IMG/VR virus record: IMGVR_UViG_3300021356_000030
Span: 1-50,491 of that record
Strand: one strand, 5' to 3'
Source of the DNA: a virus
DNA length: 50,491 nt
In this document: positions 1-42,942 of the stretch, piece by piece
Layout: each line of letters opens with the position of its first letter
Numbering within the stretch: the stretch's first letter is position 1
Made by a program: the position numbers and the translations under genes
The notes under the pieces: model-generated
Seen by the model: only the letters and a program-made list of their open reading frames with translations
Told to the model about the DNA's origin: nothing
Database searches by the model: none

Positions 1-1311
1 CCTCTTCAACAAAGGGTTGGGAGTCTTTGGTGCATTAGACATTGAGTTAGCTTTACCAAACCTTTCTGCAGCACCACCTGCTCTTGTTCCACCAGGTTTA
101 CTTCTTAGTTGATCATACTTCCTATTAATCGCTTGCTGTGCTGGAGAAAGGGTAGATCTGGGACCATATGCTCTCTCTTTAGCAGTTGGTGCAGGAGTCG
201 GGGTAGGAGTCGGTTTGGGAGTCGGTGTTGGAGTGGGGGTAGGAGTAGGCTTAACTTTGGGTTCTGGTTTTGGTTGAACTTTAGGTTCTACCTTTGGTTC
301 AACTTTGGTTTCTGGAGTAGGTGTTGTTGTTGGCTTTTCTGGCTTTGTTGTTGTTGTTGGCTTTTCTGGCTTTGTTGTTGTTGGCTTTGCTGGTGCTGTT
401 GTTCCAGTACCATCAGATCTGTTACCAGATCGATCTCTAGATGGAATATGAGGTTGTCTGATTCCACCAGTAGTAGGTTTTCTTTCACCACTTCTCACAG
501 TGGGTTCATTTGATTGTGATGGTGGGGGAGCAAGGAAATCAGTAGCTTTTTTAAATCTACTGCCTGCATTGCGGAGACCCTTGAGCCACTCCTCTCCACT
601 CTTAAGACGAACAAATTCATCAAGATTAGTATCTTCTCTCCAATTATAGAAGACTTCTTCATTATATTTCTTGTCAAACTTCTTCTCTTTCTTCTTGGCC
701 TTCTTAGCAAGTTTGTCTGCTTTCTTTTGTTTTTGGTCTGCTCGAATTTTAGATCCAACCGCAGCAACGGCACTTGCTGTACGTTTGATTGCAGTACCTG
801 CGTTAGAAGCCACTGCACCAACAGTATCGCTAAGACCTGTTCCTTCACCACTAGAAGAAGATGATGTCATACTTCCACTTGTCACGCCGCTTCCGTACTT
901 AGCGGTTTTCGCTTTCTGAGCATCTGCATTAGACTGAGCAGCAGCTGCTTTCTTTTGAACTTTCTTTAATCTTTTAGCGTCTTTGTTTTTCTCCCTCCTG
1001 TCTTGTTCTTTTTGTTGAGCTCTTTGATTTATAAGTTTATCTCTCTTTGCTTTGTCTTCGTCTCTCTTTTTTCTATTGGCTGCAGCATCAGCTAATCTTT
1101 CTTTTTGTCTTGCAGACCTTTCTTTTTCAACTTTTAATTTTCCTTTTGCTTCAACCTTTTTACCTTTCACCAAAGCATCAGAACGGTACTTAGTCGCTTG
1201 ATATCCAACCGACTGTTTTTTCTTCTGTGCTATTTCCTCATCAGAAAGAGGTCTAGCTCTAGATTTCCTCTGAGACCCTGCAGTAGGTTTCTTGGCCTCA
1301 GAGGGTTTTAC
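1..1311 (-). CDS. Minus-one-frame extension of the 554-residue late protein (partial)
   Basis: This reading frame is open from the -1 slip point at 1311 to the window edge, giving 437 codons with no stop. It has no ATG, GTG or TTG near its 5' end, and the frame is closed by a stop about 40 bases upstream of the slip point, so it looks like an extension made by frameshifting at the AAAAAAG heptamer. The product is K/A/E-rich and coiled-coil-like for about 200 residues. A globular-looking part with EEVFYNWRED follows, then a Pro/Thr/Lys tract (TPTPTPTPKPTPTPTPAPTA near 181-240), then a segment containing SPAQQAINRKYDQLR. I do not recognise a family. The Pro/Thr repeat creates spurious plus-strand ORFs. 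An internal start (TTG-GTG near 1176, ATG near 870) is an alternative. Confidence 0.75.
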
Positions 1312-1329
1312 TTTTTTGCGTTTAACTCC
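1267..1329 (-). promoter_or_regulatory. Predicted programmed -1 ribosomal frameshift signal
   Basis: Read on the minus strand the site has four parts. A Shine-Dalgarno-like GGAG lies at 1329-1326. After 8 nt comes the heptamer A_AAA_AAG at 1317-1311, in the correct phase (GCA AAA AAG). The zero-frame stop TAA at 1310-1308 follows at once. After a 6-nt spacer, a stem pairs 1304-1294 with 1277-1267: 11 pairs, one of them G-U, with a 16-nt loop. This matches the order and spacing of the E. coli dnaX signal. The -1 frame opens into at least 437 codons. The alternative is a homopolymer sequencing error (A6 for A7). Confidence 0.8.
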
Positions 1330-2972
1330 GCTCTCTGTTGTGCAGATGAAGCTTGACGATTAAGTTTTTTGTCTGCGGCAGTTTCTCTTCTTGCCTTTGC
1401 TACCATTCTTTGTACAGCACTTTCAATTAGAGACTCAACCAAGGGTGAAGAAACTTCTGGTTCTTCCTTCTTGACTTTCTCAGGAAGACCATCATGTTTG
1501 GTTCCCGCAAAATCCTTGAGATCCTTTTCCTTCATCTCTCTAGCCATTCTCGCAACTTGTGGAGTTACGGAAGACATTGGAGTGTCACCTCTCTTAACGG
1601 AGAGTGCAAGACCCATCAGTCTTTGTTGTGCCTTAGATTCTGCTTCTTCTACCACTGGGGTTTCTACTTCTTCTTTTTTACAGGAAGATTCACGTTTCTT
1701 TCTAGCCTTCTCCTTAAGACGTGCAGCAGCTGCAGATCTTTCCTCATCAGGAATAGTGAACATCTTACGTCCAGTCTTCAGTTTTTCTGCAGGTTGTCCA
1801 GGAGTTGCGGACTCTTTTGCATACTCAGGATGATCATCTACTTTGTGTCCACGCTTTTTCTCAAGGCGTTTCTTTCTTTCTTCGGTTCCCTTTTCTGAAT
1901 CTTCGTCGCGAATACCTTCTACTAGTTTACCGTCAAGTTCAGTTCCCTGACTGAGCATTTGGTTACGCTTCTTAAGTCTACCAGCAAGACCCGTTCCTTG
2001 TTCTGCATCCTTCTTGAACTTGTTCACTGTTTGCATACCTTTAATTGCTTTGTATCCAGCAAGACCAGCAGCAATTGCACCTGCACCAATAGCCATTGGG
2101 ATACCCTCATCAATTTGATCACCTTCTGGTTCAAAAGAATTCATTTGACTCTGTTGGTGGTGGCCGATCGTGTTCTGAGTTCGCACAGAAGGACGAGCAG
2201 TGCCACGACCAGATCCAACTGGTTTCAGTACATTACTTACAGCTTTACCAACTGGATTTTTCTTCATGAACTGAGAACCTCTATCAAGAGCACCAGTCAC
2301 TGCACCCTTGATATCGAGTTCCTGAAGTTCTACTTCTTCTTTCTGTTCTTTCTTCTTGAGATTTGCCTTACGATACTCAAGATCAGCGCGAGTTCCTTTG
2401 TCCATCTTGCCTTGGGACTTGGGTTTGGTCTTACCACCTTCATCAGGTTGAGAACCAGGATTTGCTGCCTTGACTCTACGACCATGAGTGTACTCAGCAC
2501 CACTCATCTTGGAGTCACCAGATACCATCTTACCGCCTTGGGAGCGATCATCCTTATACTCTTTCTCAGACTGTCCGTGCTTACCTTTGTAACGTTCGTC
2601 TACTAATTCAAACTCTTCTTTCTTAGTCTTCTTTTTCTTATCGTCTTTTTCAATGCGGGCAGACATCTTACGAATCTGGTCGATACTCATGTTACCGATA
2701 CCAGTGAATCCATCTTTAGAAGGATCGGTTTGTTTTTTAGAGTCGTCCTTATAACCACCAGCAGAACGAGCTGCACGACGATTCTCATCTAACTCAAGTT
2801 CTTCTTTACGAGTATCTTGACCGTCGGCCTTCTTACCCTTAGCGCGTTGAATAGCGTTATGAACTACCCCAGCATGTTCCTTAGAACCGCTTTCAACCTT
2901 ACCGTCGCCATCGTAATCTTTATTGGCTTTTTTCTCGGTAAGCTCTTGAGAGAAACTACTCCAACTTTTCAT
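1308..2972 (-). CDS. Long K/E-rich late protein, zero-frame product (554 aa), likely virion or internal head protein
   Basis: The protein is highly charged and low in complexity, with many KKK/EE stretches and a short hydrophobic Ala/Gly segment (GIPMAIGAGAIAAGLAGY). An EF-hand-like DYDGDGKVE sits near residue 20. It begins MKSWSSFSQELTE, resembling the T4 capsid-targeting peptide (MKTYQEFIAEA type) that ends in a gp21 cleavage motif; further L/I-x-E motifs recur (for example LVE, LIE). A GATAAATA late box lies about 30 bases upstream of the ATG. The zero frame ends immediately after a slippery heptamer. I do not recognise a family. Packaging in the capsid is an inference from the N terminus and the late promoter. 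Confidence 0.8.
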   Translation of the reverse strand: MKSWSSFSQELTEKKANKDYDGDGKVESGSKEHAGVVHNAIQRAKGKKADGQDTRKEELELDENRRAARSAGGYKDDSKKQTDPSKDGFTGIGNMSIDQIRKMSARIEKDDKKKKTKKEEFELVDERYKGKHGQSEKEYKDDRSQGGKMVSGDSKMSGAEYTHGRRVKAANPGSQPDEGGKTKPKSQGKMDKGTRADLEYRKANLKKKEQKEEVELQELDIKGAVTGALDRGSQFMKKNPVGKAVSNVLKPVGSGRGTARPSVRTQNTIGHHQQSQMNSFEPEGDQIDEGIPMAIGAGAIAAGLAGYKAIKGMQTVNKFKKDAEQGTGLAGRLKKRNQMLSQGTELDGKLVEGIRDEDSEKGTEERKKRLEKKRGHKVDDHPEYAKESATPGQPAEKLKTGRKMFTIPDEERSAAAARLKEKARKKRESSCKKEEVETPVVEEAESKAQQRLMGLALSVKRGDTPMSSVTPQVARMAREMKEKDLKDFAGTKHDGLPEKVKKEEPEVSSPLVESLIESAVQRMVAKARRETAADKKLNRQASSAQQRAELNAKK

Positions 2973-3000
2973 GTATCCGAAATCTGAGACTGCCTATGTT

Positions 3001-4212
3001 TTATTTATCAGATTTCTTTTTAGTCATGGTGGCAAGGACTCTAGTCTTATTGTATCTCGCAATCTTTTGACCTGGAGTTAATCCTTGGAGATATTCTCTA
3101 TACTCGTCTGTTGCAATTTCATGAGGTTTATCATTGTGTTCGATCAAATCTCTCAACCAAGACTTGAACATTACATCACTTTCAGTAACTGCAATGACAT
3201 AATTAGTTCCTCTTCTAAGAACCTTTCCTTTTAATCCAGTGTTGATATTTTCTACAATAGTACCGATAGAATAAATTTCTTCCTTGATGTATTGATTTCT
3301 TAGAGTCTCTTCATCAAACTTTGGAGCAATTTCCCAAGTTTCACTAATACCCATACTCTTACGAAGAGTATTGTAGAGTTCCATTTTCTTTTGATTATTA
3401 AGTGTACTTGGGACACCCTTGGCAAAAGATTTGAAATCACCTTCACTCGCTGCAAGTCTAAGTTTTGATGCAGACATACCTTCTGCACCTTCTGCATCAG
3501 GATCTCTATCTCCTGCAGAAACTACTTCTAGATTATCATAGTTATAAAGTTCACCATTATACTTATGACTTAGACCTTGGAACTCACCGAGACGGTCAGC
3601 ACCAACCATGATCTTCATATTCTTATGACCTTCTTCATTTGCTCCAACCATTACATTAAAAATAGTTTTGGAGTTCGCATCATCAACAATATTACCCGCA
3701 TACTTGGGGAACATCTGACGCATATAATCAATCTTAGCAGTTGCGTCTAGAGGATTCTTTTTCTTATCTTGACTTCTCGAAGGATAGATTCTCAGTTCGT
3801 ATCCGTTTTTTTCTGCTTCTTGTGCAGCTTTATTGAGTAACTTTTCGTGTCCGATTGTCGGAGGATTGAACCTACCAAAAACAATAACGACACCATTAGA
3901 CTCTGATTTTTCTTGCGATTCCTCTGCATCTCCAGATTTTTCTGGAGATACTTTTTTCGGTTGAGTCTCGGTGGATACTGATTTCTTAGCATCTGGTTTA
4001 GATGTTGTAGGTTTCTCTACATTGCTGTTCTCTTCTTTTGACTTCTTACCTTGTCCAAAGAACTTTAACTTACCACTAACAGTTTTAGCGACAAGAGTTC
4101 CATCTTTGTCATACCAGTCTCCATGACCATCGCCTTCCAACCCAAGTCTCTTCGCTTGAGCAGACGCAGAAGTTTCTACGGCTTCTTTAAGAAATTGGGA
4201 AAATGATTTCAT
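3001..4212 (-). CDS. Nucleotidyltransferase (HIGH superfamily) with capsid-targeting-like N terminus
   Basis: Residues 1-11 read MKSFSQFLKEA, very close to the T4 internal-protein targeting peptide and including an LKE|A site fitting the gp21 protease rule (L/I-x-E|A/G). A charged linker (about 55-105) leads to a cytidylyl/adenylyl-transferase domain: VVIVFGRFNPPTIGH (about 108-122) carries the TxGH nucleotide-binding motif, and MSASKLR near 245 corresponds to the second (ISSSxxR-like) motif. The C terminus (TGLKGKVLRRGTNYV) looks like a small KOW-like beta domain. A CTAAATA late box lies upstream. The domain resembles NMN adenylyltransferase or glycerol-phosphate cytidylyltransferase; the substrate is unknown. 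Delivery with the virion is an inference. Confidence 0.75.
   Translation of the reverse strand: MKSFSQFLKEAVETSASAQAKRLGLEGDGHGDWYDKDGTLVAKTVSGKLKFFGQGKKSKEENSNVEKPTTSKPDAKKSVSTETQPKKVSPEKSGDAEESQEKSESNGVVIVFGRFNPPTIGHEKLLNKAAQEAEKNGYELRIYPSRSQDKKKNPLDATAKIDYMRQMFPKYAGNIVDDANSKTIFNVMVGANEEGHKNMKIMVGADRLGEFQGLSHKYNGELYNYDNLEVVSAGDRDPDAEGAEGMSASKLRLAASEGDFKSFAKGVPSTLNNQKKMELYNTLRKSMGISETWEIAPKFDEETLRNQYIKEEIYSIGTIVENINTGLKGKVLRRGTNYVIAVTESDVMFKSWLRDLIEHNDKPHEIATDEYREYLQGLTPGQKIARYNKTRVLATMTKKKSDK
3002..3009 (-). promoter_or_regulatory. T4-type late promoter box GATAAATA
   Basis: Minus-strand GATAAATA lies 29 bases upstream of the ATG at 2972 and overlaps the stop of the preceding gene. It differs from the T4 late consensus TATAAATA at the first base. 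Confidence 0.6.
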
Positions 4213-4245
4213 TATTAATTTAAGTCAGGGGATCGTGACCTGTAG

Positions 4246-5310
4246 TTATTTAGGAATGTAGGCAGCAGGGCCTGCCTCAATATAAAATTTCAATTCTTTT
4301 ATTTTAAACTCTCCATTAATTGTTGCAGATCTATTCTTGAATCTTAACTGAAAGAGTTCTTTATTCTGGGGCATAATTTTGAACTTTAAATTATCTGATT
4401 TTTTCTCCACAGAAAATCCAGTAACTTTTTGTTCCAACTCATTGATATAATCAACTGTCATTTCTTTAATCTTTGTTTTGTCAATATCAACAACGTCTGC
4501 AAGGTCGTCACCGAAGGTAACGTCTCTAAAAAGTTTGAAAGCTTGTGATTTAAATGCAGATGTTCCTTGTTGATTTTTTAGAGAAGTTAGTACTTCGCCG
4601 TAAAGTTGTTTAATTAAATCAACTTTCATCTTCTTCTCTGCAGGAGTTCTTGCTTGTGCAAGAGTTCCACCAAGAGTTGCGGCATACATCTCACGGTCAG
4701 ACACCTGAGTTCCAAACCTCTGAAGGATATCCATCATACCATTATATGGACTAAGATTGGCAAGAGTTTTACTACCAGACTTCAATGAGAAATTTAAATT
4801 CTGGTTCATTGCTCGAGAACCATTAATATCCACCAAGACTTCCAAGTCCCCCTTAATCATACCACCAGAAGATTCCCCAGCAATGCCATCCGCAACAATT
4901 GTAATTACAACATTATCTGACTTATTATTATCAAGATAACTTTTTTTTACCTTCTCAACCATCTTGCGATAGTTTGTTGTTGTGTATTTTATTAGTTGAT
5001 CTATCTTTCTATCAAGGTTTCCAACATCATTACTCTGTTCATATAGTGGAGCATATTCTTCTCCGAATGCCATTCTTGTAGACTCATACTTCATCCGCAT
5101 CTCAAGATTAACTTCAATCTTATCCTCAGGTCTACCATCTCTAAATTTTCTGATTTGAGTTTTATATCTACCACTCCTAAAAAGACTTGCGTCTACTCTT
5201 CTCCTTACATTATTCAAACGAGTTTTTGATATACTTCCCCAGGCAAATAGTTCTCCGAGAGCAATGGCAAAGATGCCCTCCATTACGTCTCCTTCGTTTA
5301 ACTTTGCCAT
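4246..5310 (-). CDS. Conserved-type cyanophage protein of unknown function (354 aa)
   Basis: I do not recognise the family. The protein is soluble and mixed alpha/beta, with no signal or membrane segment. It has an N-terminal helical part (MAKLNEGDVMEGIFAIALGE), a basic stretch at about 28-55, a beta-rich centre (DNVVITIVADGIAG) and a C-terminal beta region. The ATG follows a G-rich Shine-Dalgarno (GGGGG) that is also the 3' arm of a hairpin. It comes just before two late genes and has its own AATAAATA late box, so a virion or late-assembly role is possible. Confidence 0.75.
   Translation of the reverse strand: MAKLNEGDVMEGIFAIALGELFAWGSISKTRLNNVRRRVDASLFRSGRYKTQIRKFRDGRPEDKIEVNLEMRMKYESTRMAFGEEYAPLYEQSNDVGNLDRKIDQLIKYTTTNYRKMVEKVKKSYLDNNKSDNVVITIVADGIAGESSGGMIKGDLEVLVDINGSRAMNQNLNFSLKSGSKTLANLSPYNGMMDILQRFGTQVSDREMYAATLGGTLAQARTPAEKKMKVDLIKQLYGEVLTSLKNQQGTSAFKSQAFKLFRDVTFGDDLADVVDIDKTKIKEMTVDYINELEQKVTGFSVEKKSDNLKFKIMPQNKELFQLRFKNRSATINGEFKIKELKFYIEAGPAAYIPK
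4247..4254 (-). promoter_or_regulatory. Late promoter box CCTAAATA
   Basis: Minus-strand CCTAAATA overlaps the stop of the preceding gene and lies 34 bases upstream of the ATG at 4212. It fits the degenerate [N]TAAATA late element of T4-like cyanophages. Confidence 0.5.
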
Positions 5311-9904: not shown

Positions 9905-10414
9905 TTAATCAAAAAATGTAGAAATAGTTATTCTGTATTTTGGACCTGCAACCGACTGCGGTCGGATCGCATGTGGGATGTCCCCATCAAATAGCAATAT
10001 TCTACCAGGAACATACAATGATGTAAATGCTACATCTTTAAGATCGTCACTGTAGAAAAAAGTTTCACCATACCATCCATCTCTCCACTCAAGATTTACA
10101 TAATACAAAATGCCTTTCTTGTAACAATGAGTATGAATTAAGTGAACATCATTTGGTCGAACTAAATTTAATACTGCTCTAGAAAATTTATTATATGTAA
10201 ACCATGGTGTATCTTTGATACACTCTTCAAAGTACTTCCATAATCCACAGGTAATTAGATTATCTAAATTCCAATCTCCGTAGAGATTCTGATAATTAAG
10301 TTCATTAATATGTTGGTCTCTCCAACCCAATCTTAGATTCGATTCTAAAGCGTAATGTAAAATTTCACCTCGGTCGTGACGAGCAACGGCATCATCATAA
10401 ACTTTAATATTCAT
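9905..10414 (-). CDS. Putative 2OG-Fe(II) oxygenase, small type
   Basis: A compact 169-residue protein with a beta-helix pattern: LIHTHCYKKGILYYVNLEW gives a candidate first His and core strand, YVPGRILLFDGDIPHAIRP gives the distal His, and KYRITISTFF the last strand with its Arg. The expected HxD is HTH-like here, so one iron ligand is unclear. It begins 1 base from the previous stop and lies between a cytidylyltransferase-like gene and uvsX. Catalytic activity is uncertain. Confidence 0.65.
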   Translation of the reverse strand: MNIKVYDDAVARHDRGEILHYALESNLRLGWRDQHINELNYQNLYGDWNLDNLITCGLWKYFEECIKDTPWFTYNKFSRAVLNLVRPNDVHLIHTHCYKKGILYYVNLEWRDGWYGETFFYSDDLKDVAFTSLYVPGRILLFDGDIPHAIRPQSVAGPKYRITISTFFD

Positions 10415-10875
10415 CAGATGCCCAATAATTTACGTTGACGTTCAAAATATCCTCGGAGAATCCAAGAACTACTATTCATTTTATCATCCCCGCCAACGCC
10501 AAATTCAAACTGGACTCGGGGATTGTCTCCATACATATCGAGTTCTGGTGTATTGCCTGATCCACGATCACCACCGTTGCAAAATACAACAGTCTCTGCA
10601 ATTTCTAGACACTTAGCAATTGCGCCACATGCAGATCCAACCTCATCGTCTGGAACAGTAACAACTGCATCGACCATATTGAGATGACGTACAATCTCTG
10701 CACGTTCAACCCAAGATAAAAAGTATTGACCTTTCTTTGCAGTCAACCATTCATTAGTATTCAGTCCCACTACAAGATAGTCAGAAAAATCTTTCGCTCT
10801 CTTGAAGTAAGATATATGTCCACTATGAATAGGATCAAATCCTCCTGTAACCAGACTCACTTTTTCAAAAAACAT
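10414..10875 (-). CDS. Cytidylyltransferase-like nucleotidyltransferase
   Basis: GGFDPIHSGH at residues 11-20 is the HxGH signature of the glycerol-3-phosphate cytidylyltransferase / RfaE-C superfamily, and LVVGLNTNEWL and SWVERAEIVRHL match the next two conserved blocks. At 153 residues it is a stand-alone catalytic domain. It transfers a nucleotide to a phosphorylated small molecule, but the substrate cannot be read from sequence. It overlaps its neighbour genes by one base on each side. It is distinct from the late nucleotidyltransferase at 3001-4212. Confidence 0.85.
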   Translation of the reverse strand: MFFEKVSLVTGGFDPIHSGHISYFKRAKDFSDYLVVGLNTNEWLTAKKGQYFLSWVERAEIVRHLNMVDAVVTVPDDEVGSACGAIAKCLEIAETVVFCNGGDRGSGNTPELDMYGDNPRVQFEFGVGGDDKMNSSSWILRGYFERQRKLLGI

Positions 10876-39599: not shown

Positions 39600-40967
39600 T
39601 CACATGAGGTTAGCAACCTTGACTCTTCTGTAGTAACGGTTTGCGTTGATGCGGAGTCTTCCGAGACCTGCGGTAGTTCCTTCTGCGAATGGGTTAGCAA
39701 CAATACCGTAACGGGTCTTGAAGCCAATCTTGGGCTGGAAGGTGTCCTGACCGACGGCACGAACCATCTGGAGAGGAACATATGGGCAGTAGAAGAGACC
39801 TGCGTCGTATGCGCTAGAACCCTTATAACCAACAACGTAGTACTGATCAGCAGCAACGTTTGCAGCATAAGGATCGATGTAGACACGATACTTACCTTGG
39901 AGAACACCAGCGAAGGTGTTGCCAGAGTCATCAACGTTAAGGTTAGCGTTGAGTGCAGGGGTGTAATCGAGTACACCAGCCATGGTTAGAGCGGAAGCAA
40001 CGTCTGCGGAACAGATGATGGTGTTGCCCTTTCCTCTACGAGTTCTTTGTGCGATTGCGTTGGCATCGCGCTCGATTTGGAACAGAAGACCCTTGAACTT
40101 CTCAACAGACCAACGACCGTTGGAGTCAACGTCGAGGTCGAAAGTACCTGCGGTTGCAACGTTTGCAGTTGCACCCTGCTCAGCAACCTTGTAGATGGTT
40201 CTGATGACTTCGCGGTTGATTTCAGCGAGGATCTCAGTTGACAGGATGTTTGCCAACTCAGCCTCAGCGTTCAGACCGTGAATCGCCTTGAGGTCTTGTG
40301 CCAGTTCCAAGGAGTACTCAGCTTTGAGTGCTCTGGACTTAGCGGTTACAGTGACTTTCTCGATCGAGAATGCCATCTGGTTGAAGTGGTTAGAAGCACC
40401 GTCTCCGAGAGCTTCAGACTCACCAGTGGACATACCCTGACCAACGGTGTAACCGAGGGAGTTTGCGGAACCAACTGGGTTCAGCGCACTTGGGTTAGTA
40501 CCTGCTTGTGCATCAGTACCCATACCAGCAGCGGCATCAGAGAAGCCACCAGTGAGGGAATCTGCACTGTTCTGACCAGAGAATGCGGAATCGACTTCAT
40601 CGAAGAAGGTCTCGGTTCCAGTCTGGCTGTCCTGACGGGAGCGCATTGCGAAGATAAGTCCAGTAGGACCACTCATTGGCTGAACGCCGCAGATATCGTA
40701 TGCGATCAGGTTAGGCATGGAGCGTCTGATCAAGGAGATCAGAACGGGATCGAAGCCAGCAACGTTAGCGCCTGCAGGTGCATGACCTGAGTTGGTTGGT
40801 GCAGCTTCTCCAAGGAAGGAAGCAGTCTCTTGGGACTCTTTCTCTTGGTTCTCTAGGAGCTGTGCAACAACTCCTCTCTTGTGGGAATCGGCAATATCAC
40901 TGAAACTTTCGTGGTTCAGGATAGGAGCCCACTTCTCCTGTAATTGTTGTAGGTTTTGTCCGTCCAT
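39600..40967 (-). CDS. gp23: Major capsid protein gp23
   Basis: An HK97-fold capsid protein of T4 type, 455 residues: SLIRRSMPNLIAYDICGVQP and MSGPTGLIFAMRSR are gp23 hallmarks, as is VRTIYKVAEQG-like ending with KIGFKTRYGIVANPFAEG. A prohead-protease site FLGE|A at residues 51-54 fits L-x-E|A, removing about 54 residues on maturation. Late expression is expected; a GATAATAC stretch about 45 bases upstream may be a degenerate late box. A TTCG terminator follows. Confidence 0.97.
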   Translation of the reverse strand: MDGQNLQQLQEKWAPILNHESFSDIADSHKRGVVAQLLENQEKESQETASFLGEAAPTNSGHAPAGANVAGFDPVLISLIRRSMPNLIAYDICGVQPMSGPTGLIFAMRSRQDSQTGTETFFDEVDSAFSGQNSADSLTGGFSDAAAGMGTDAQAGTNPSALNPVGSANSLGYTVGQGMSTGESEALGDGASNHFNQMAFSIEKVTVTAKSRALKAEYSLELAQDLKAIHGLNAEAELANILSTEILAEINREVIRTIYKVAEQGATANVATAGTFDLDVDSNGRWSVEKFKGLLFQIERDANAIAQRTRRGKGNTIICSADVASALTMAGVLDYTPALNANLNVDDSGNTFAGVLQGKYRVYIDPYAANVAADQYYVVGYKGSSAYDAGLFYCPYVPLQMVRAVGQDTFQPKIGFKTRYGIVANPFAEGTTAGLGRLRINANRYYRRVKVANLM

Positions 40968-42291: not shown

Positions 42292-42942
42292 TTATAGTGA
42301 CGACAGGAAGTCATTGAACAGATTTAACTTCTGTTCGTCGAGTCTTCCTTGGTCTACGAGGGTATTTATACGGGTCTTAGTTATTTCCGCTTTCTTTTCG
42401 CGAAGGAGACTGCCTTCCCATACCCACTCTTTTCCTTCCATGATTCCATCAACAAAAGCATCAGGTGCAGAAGGATCCGCTACGATGTCAGCAGCAGTTG
42501 CTAACATGAAGTCTTCACCAACAACTTTGATGCCATCAGTGTCTTCTTTTAGTGAACCGATACCACGGGAAGAGACTCCTAGTTTTACACCTTCACCTAA
42601 AAGTGATTGTGCAATTTTACCCATGGGAGTAGAAAGAATTTTTGCCTTTCCGTAGAAGTTATCACCTCTTTGCTCAAGCATCGTGATCTTGTGAGAAACA
42701 CGATCAAGGTTCACAGTAGGTCCATCGGGGTGACCGAGTTCTCCTAATGCACGACCTTTTCCAGTGAAGTTTTCGTTATAACGATGCACTTCTTTTGCTA
42801 GAGTTTCGACGGGATACATGCGACCATTACGGTTCTTGATTCCGCCTTGTAGAAATACACCTTCGATGTAAAGGGATTTTTTTCCACCCTTAGATTCGAC
42901 GATAACGTCTACACTCTCTATTTCTTCCCTGATTAGTTTCAT
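42292..42942 (-). CDS. gp21: Prohead core protease gp21
   Basis: A 216-residue prohead serine protease: KNRNGRMYPVETLAKEVHRY, GELGHPDGPTVNLDRVSHKI with the catalytic His and KLGVSSRGIGSL with the Ser are the herpes-type prohead protease motifs. It cleaves scaffold, capsid and internal proteins after L/I-x-E. CATAAATA lies 27 bases upstream of the ATG. Confidence 0.96.
   Translation of the reverse strand: MKLIREEIESVDVIVESKGGKKSLYIEGVFLQGGIKNRNGRMYPVETLAKEVHRYNENFTGKGRALGELGHPDGPTVNLDRVSHKITMLEQRGDNFYGKAKILSTPMGKIAQSLLGEGVKLGVSSRGIGSLKEDTDGIKVVGEDFMLATAADIVADPSAPDAFVDGIMEGKEWVWEGSLLREKKAEITKTRINTLVDQGRLDEQKLNLFNDFLSSL

Follow-up and report, generated by a model that had tools for sequence, protein, structure and literature searches.

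In phage T4, the first 10 residues of the internal protein IPIII suffice for targeting to the head (PMC9026906, a review, section 2.6), and mutagenesis has assigned residues 4 and 7 to targeting and residues 8 and 10 to processing (PMC9026906). The T4 ADP-ribosyltransferase Alt is a head enzyme that undergoes gp21 processing and is delivered along with the DNA (PMC5694885, PMC9026906), and the capsid targeting sequence (CTS) has been suggested, in general terms, to let T4-like phages package varied proteins (PMC9026906).

A cytidylyltransferase/NMNAT-like enzyme has turned up time and again in cyanophage virions without explanation; it is a nucleotidyltransferase (NTase) whose family is a cyanophage core gene (PMC3037559). 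It was detected by mass spectrometry as T4-GC190 in S-SM1 (PMC3037559), ORF91 in S-SCSM1 (PMC9602691), S-SZBM1_140, together with its neighbour _139, in S-SZBM1 (PMC9146016) and ORF154 in S-CREM2 (PMC10665884). The authors could not separate packaging from contamination, noting that abundant soluble proteins may accompany particles purified on CsCl (PMC10665884, PMC9602691). No neo-N-terminus has been reported for these orthologues, and the literature open to full-text search (subscription papers lie outside it) holds no paper tying the virion NTases to a CTS. Here we describe an orthologue in a 50,491-base fragment of one virus record, the whole of which is referred to as the window.

Results and discussion

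Late-gene setting

Counterparts of the T4-like late genes for the large terminase, gp18, gp19, gp20, gp21, gp22 and gp23 lie on the minus strand of the window, named from gene order or, for gp23, by alignment. The relatives of the window are Kyanoviridae, with S-SCSM2R the closest named NTase homologue (57% identity), and its phage is of the T4-like marine cyanophage kind. The late box [CA]TAAATA has 23 copies on the coding (minus) strand and none on the plus strand, and it also precedes gp18, gp20, gp21 and gp22. A sequence-only reading of this DNA had pointed to two adjacent late genes with CTS-like N-termini, the NTase gene and the one following it (the second gene), and the late boxes it noted are present ahead of both (Table 1). 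A short inverted repeat (GGTCA...TGACT; 4213-4242, minus strand) stands immediately ahead of the NTase start, and in relatives L010-L054 it reads GGTTA...TAACT, with apparent compensatory changes.

Table 1. Features of the window, with positions in window coordinates
Feature	Position	Strand	Basis or remark
-1 frame extension, 437 codons to window edge	1..1311	-	no start codon in first 45 codons
Hairpin just downstream of slippery heptamer	1267..1304	-	one covarying pair, U-A to C-G, in L013
Second late gene, 554 aa, modular, charged, starts MKSWSSFSQELTEKKA	1308..2972	-	ORF reading
Second-gene modules: EF-hand-like DYDGDGKVESGS; module at residues 123-204; DUF3008 at 444-500			
Slippery heptamer A AAA AAG directly before stop TAA (1308-1310)	1311..1317	-	also in L010, L012, L013, L015
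GGAG upstream of slippery heptamer	1326..1329	-	GGAG or GGGG in L010, L012, L013, L015
Variant tag MKSWSSFSQELTE (W4, F7; possible cut after E13)	2934..2972	-	relatives keep W4, F7, [LIV]xE13
NTase gene, 403 aa, starts MKSFSQFLKEAVET	3001..4212	-	ORF reading
NTase parts: tag 1-10; GDGHG(D/G)WYD module about 16-53, then variable linker; NTase domain about 106-285; C-terminal domain about 290-390			
Late box ATAAATA, second gene	3002..3008	-	36 nt before start
Tag MKSFSQFLKE, capsid-targeting type, predicted gp21 cut after E10 (FLKE/A)	4183..4212	-	conservation in orthologues
Upstream late gene, 354 aa, no tag	4246..5310	-	E11, D155 (KGD155), SxK177 conserved
Late box CTAAATA, NTase gene	4247..4253	-	41 nt before start
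gp23 major capsid protein gene	39600..40967	-	aligned with T4 and Kyanoviridae gp23
FLGE, gp23 residues 51-54, predicted maturation site	40806..40817	-	aligned to T4 FLTE/A
gp21-type prohead protease gene	42292..42942	-	translation reading and gene order, between gp20 and gp22/gp23 genes

The protease gene occupies a position homologous to that of the annotated prohead protease of S-SCSM1. T4 gp23 is cut at FLTE/A, where the slash marks the cut, and the sites aligned with it are FLGE/A in the window, FLAE/A in S-SCSM1 and S-CRM01, FLSE/A in P-SSM2 and ILTE/A in S-SZBM1. From this alignment cyanophage gp23 would be cut at an FLxE/A-type site, and the FLKE/A of the NTase tag is of the same type as the FLGE/A of the window's gp23.

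The N-terminal tag of the nucleotidyltransferase

Conservation of the tag was assessed in 32 distinct N-terminal 14-mers from NTase homologues that had been retrieved through matches to other parts of the protein. M1, K2, F4, F7 and E10 are invariant in all 32, while position 8 is L, F or I (L/I in 25, F in 7), position 11 is A in 28, and positions 3, 5, 6, 9 and 12-14 vary. M1, F4, F7 and E10 are also invariant in an alignment of 23 diverged orthologues, and the tag pattern is present in 81/81 further loci of S-SM1 and S-CREM2 type, the viral contigs containing one S-CREM2-type relative. The NTase of S-SSM7 starts at GTG, giving (M)KSFGQFLTEA, and the tag of S-SZBM1 (MRFRQFIIEA) has one residue fewer ahead of the pattern. 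In S-SZBM1, S-CREM2 and S-CRM01, which lack residues about 15-100 (the 90-residue module and linker), the NTase domain follows the tag almost immediately; the tag persists where these residues are missing, so it is a separate unit. The jumbo-phage homologue L055, which begins at the NTase domain, and the window's other CTP_transf-like gene (10414-10875) have no tag.

The residues conserved in the NTase tag are the very ones that T4 work has shown to be critical. The retrieved sequences of T4 IPII and IPIII both begin MKTYQEFIAEA, the peptide given in the sequence-only reading, and the fit it proposed between the NTase and the L/I-x-E cleavage site also holds, with L8, E10 and A11 in place. There is good support for its view of the NTase as a capsid-targeted protein: the T4-critical positions are kept, gp23 has an FLxE/A site, and orthologues (at 36-48% identity, from phages other than the window's) were detected in purified virions. 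S-SCSM1 ORF91 is flagged as a virion protein in GenBank, as are all of S-SCSM1_89 to _93, the genes around the NTase.

We posit that the NTase very probably carries a CTS of the T4 internal-protein type, by which it would be loaded into the prohead, cut by gp21 and ejected with the DNA. Late in infection, F4 and F7 would dock the enzyme onto the prohead scaffold core, and after shell closure the gp21-type protease would cut it after E10. The mature NTase would then lie loose in the head with DNA packed around it; by analogy with Alt and the internal proteins of T4, it would enter the new host together with the DNA and act there immediately. The conserved T4-type tag and the matching protease site thus offer a specific mechanism for the NTase in particles: its orthologues would recur in purified particles because the tag loads the enzyme into the head.

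Enzyme domain

The earlier recognition of a nucleotidyltransferase with a TxGH domain is borne out by the Pfam CTP_transf_like match (26.9 bits vs a cut-off of 21), by PHROG 395 (E=1.7e-98) and by the motif GRFNPPTIGH, which the domain contains along with SRSQDKKKNPL and SASKxR. All three, the second in the form SRSxDxKKNPL, are kept across the aligned orthologues. Homologues occur in 532 phage records, and identity to the S-SCSM1 orthologue is 45%. In one contig (L020, 3701-7204, plus strand) the NTase and the following gene are apparently fused in a single 1167-aa frame.

Scores for the NCBIfam NMN adenylyltransferase models (NadM/NadR/NadD) stay below threshold, with TIGR00482 at 14.7-25.3 bits vs a cut-off of 112 and TIGR01526 no higher than 20 bits vs 341. 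The best PDB match of the NTase profile is an NMNAT chain at E=0.026, too weak to name a substrate. NMNAT identity is therefore at best a faint suggestion at superfamily level; the nucleotidyltransferase superfamily is the sole secure assignment that can be drawn from the sequence, with catalysis presumed. An NAD+ salvage pathway was considered and rejected, no NAMPT-type partner (PF04095) being found in 10 relatives.

Occurrence of the tag beyond the NTase

The strict pattern M..[FYW]..[FY][LIFVM].E was counted in nine Kyanoviridae genomes, with ORFs called by a simple script and starts uncurated. It matched 12/2437 N-termini vs 1/8982 internal methionines (Fisher p=9e-8), making it about 45 times commoner at N-termini; the corresponding counts in T4 are 3/265 and 0/969. 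A degenerate-DNA scan of viral contigs for MK[ST..]Fx[QKE..]F[LF]xEA returned at least 120 stretches, and two codon-permuted control patterns, in which the same codons were reordered, returned 0 and 0. The observation on the NTase is thus real and well above chance. At least 123 tagged N-termini, in about 38 unrelated protein clusters, were found among the matches listed, and these are taken as true starts since 120 of the 123 have at most 40 open codons upstream.

Among the other proteins that bear the tag are a GNAT acetyltransferase, a DPBB/RlpA-like protein, a DUF5661 protein and a weak match to M78-type metallopeptidases, which lends support to the tag as a general cargo code. We give an even chance to the proposal that the T4 CTS serves T4-like marine phages in this way, a cleavable tag of about 11 residues loading dozens of unrelated proteins for delivery. 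Its cargo would comprise nucleotidyltransferase, acetyltransferase, metallopeptidase-like, RlpA-like and PD-(D/E)XK-like proteins and unknowns, with presence in the virion predicted for those other than the NTase, a roster to which we attach the same even odds. If this is true, the proteins injected by a phage could be read from its genome, including those of many uncultured T4-like phages. S-SCSM1 has two strict tags, one of them on a flagged virion protein, which is too few for an enrichment test; S-SCSM1_30 (MKTFKQFMSES..., 106 aa) is tagged and lacks the flag, and its homologue S-SZBM1_191 is absent from the S-SZBM1 virion list (PMC9146016).

By pattern, T4 gp61.1 (NC_000866 18966-19130, minus strand, L065; 54 aa), which starts MKTFKEFIKED, would be a further CTS-type protein. 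In S-CRM01 (NC_015569 99424-104425, minus strand, L114-L115) most of a run of consecutive late genes have tag-like N-termini (MNFSEFLEA, MISFDQFLSEK, MKKLDQFLTEK, MKLFNQFFKEA and, from a possible GTG start, MKLSLDSFIKEA), and one gene of the run encodes a free-standing GDGHG-module protein.

The second gene and its possible frameshift

The sequence-only reading had assigned the tag to both neighbouring genes. Both ORFs exist and the NTase tag is canonical, but the exact tag is not found in the second gene, which has W4 and F7 but S8, as do all relatives compared. The canonical 10-residue tag, with a hydrophobic residue 8 and a cut at E10, is thus absent there, and with S at residue 8 no cleavage is predicted after E10. 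An alternative site, LTE/K, follows E13. The N-termini of relatives from two clades, MKSWNSFSxELTE/K and MASWEEFSRIVAE/A, keep W4, F7 and [LIV]xE13; with this motif in place of E10, the cut would be shifted by three residues. No clear tag is present on the proteins that occupy this place in S-SCSM1, S-SZBM1 and S-SM1, two of which are nonetheless virion proteins. Capsid targeting of the second gene product, as first proposed, is plausible given W4 and F7, but it would be non-canonical, with the cut at E13, and the feature is not kept in distant relatives. On balance we favour a W4/F7 variant of the tag, cut after E13.

The second gene product could also be read as a gp21-cut polyprotein: LxE is mildly enriched in it (9 vs 4.4 expected, p=0.02), an enrichment absent in many relatives, and gp22 has 15 such sites vs 7.7 expected (p=0.0015). 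Modules move between proteins of the cluster. Residues 123-204 of the second gene product (82 residues) form a module with as much as 94% identity in other phages, and this module precedes the NTase in S-SCSM1 (S-SCSM1_89), where DUF3008 is a separate virion protein (S-SCSM1_93).

The second gene ends GCA AAA AAG TAA and is apparently joined by a programmed -1 frameshift to a long ORF, which continues beyond the window edge. The features of a dnaX-type site are present, namely an in-frame A AAA AAG, GGAG upstream, a hairpin downstream and an open -1 frame without its own start (Table 1). In the window and in L010, L012, L013 and L015 the hairpin is strong and begins at most 6 nt after the stop; in these four contigs the -1 frame is open for 334-360 codons without a nearby start, and the extension ends RRRWNC, similar to the RRWNC/RAWNC end of the single-frame gene in a sister clade. 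A site of this kind was found in 0/9 other genomes. The evidence comes from one small clade, since an exact-site scan matched only the same four contigs.

Neighbouring genes

The conserved residues of the upstream gene (Table 1) suggest a PD-(D/E)XK-like fold, as in PD-(D/E)XK nucleases; this reading drew no support from a PDB profile search or from hhalign comparisons with L222 and S-SCSM1_90. Unrelated proteins with similar E/D/SxK patterns stand at the same place in other cyanophages, S-SCSM1_90 among them being a virion protein, and the position upstream of the NTase has the look of a cassette with variable content. In S-CREM2, a virion protein encoded two genes beyond the NTase (OR473000 126012-126725, L064) has an NTP_transf_2 match of 21.4 bits and by that match is a second, unrelated type of nucleotidyltransferase in the particle. 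DUF6267 proteins with a ligase-like KxDG motif (VKWDGAPAI) adjoin the NTase in S-SZBM1 (S-SZBM1_141; L056 33478-34671, minus strand) and S-SM1 (147295-148269), and DUF6267 is found in 9/10 relatives searched.

Alternative explanations

The NTase might instead be a soluble late enzyme of the producing cell, carried over into particle preparations, its N-terminus being simply part of the enzyme. The authors of the virion studies allow for such carry-over (PMC10665884, PMC9602691), and peptides of the orthologue were few, with 3 in S-CREM2 (PMC10665884) and 2 in S-SZBM1 (PMC9146016). Against it, however, stand the detection of the enzyme by different groups in no fewer than four independent phages and a tag that also occurs on unrelated proteins and that keeps exactly the positions of the T4 CTS, even though the ~90 residues next to it are present in some orthologues and missing from others; we consider carry-over quite improbable. 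That the peptide resembles a CTS by chance is scarcely credible: although only five to six motif positions are constrained, the excess at N-termini, the empty control scans and the invariance across NTase orthologues contradict it.

It is also conceivable that the tag does dock the NTase on the prohead core but that the protein, instead of being an ejected effector, functions in assembling or maturing the head. T4 core proteins are likewise cut by gp21, and the family belongs to the cyanophage core genes, unlike variable genes of the defence type (PMC3037559). The active site of a nucleotidyltransferase, with HIGH and SASKxR motifs conserved, is nevertheless hard to reconcile with a scaffold, and the tag is of the type that is removed, as in the T4 internal proteins, so that an assembly role seems unlikely beside packaging of the NTase as an ejected enzyme.

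Comparison with known systems

The window NTase is an orthologue of the NMNAT-like/cytidylyltransferase proteins of cyanophage virions (T4-GC190, PHROG 395), in reports of which no targeting tag or cleavage site was identified and for which the NMNAT name is weakly founded. Like T4 Alt, it is an enzyme for which head packaging, gp21 processing and delivery are proposed, though its fold is unrelated to that of Alt. With T4 IPI, IPII and IPIII it shares a 10-residue peptide with an aromatic residue 4, F7, a hydrophobic residue 8 and E10, followed by A11, and its phage has the late-box gene, the gp21-type protease and the gp23 FLxE/A site. Unlike the T4 internal proteins, which are small, variable and basic, the cargo here is a conserved 403-aa enzyme with predicted processing.
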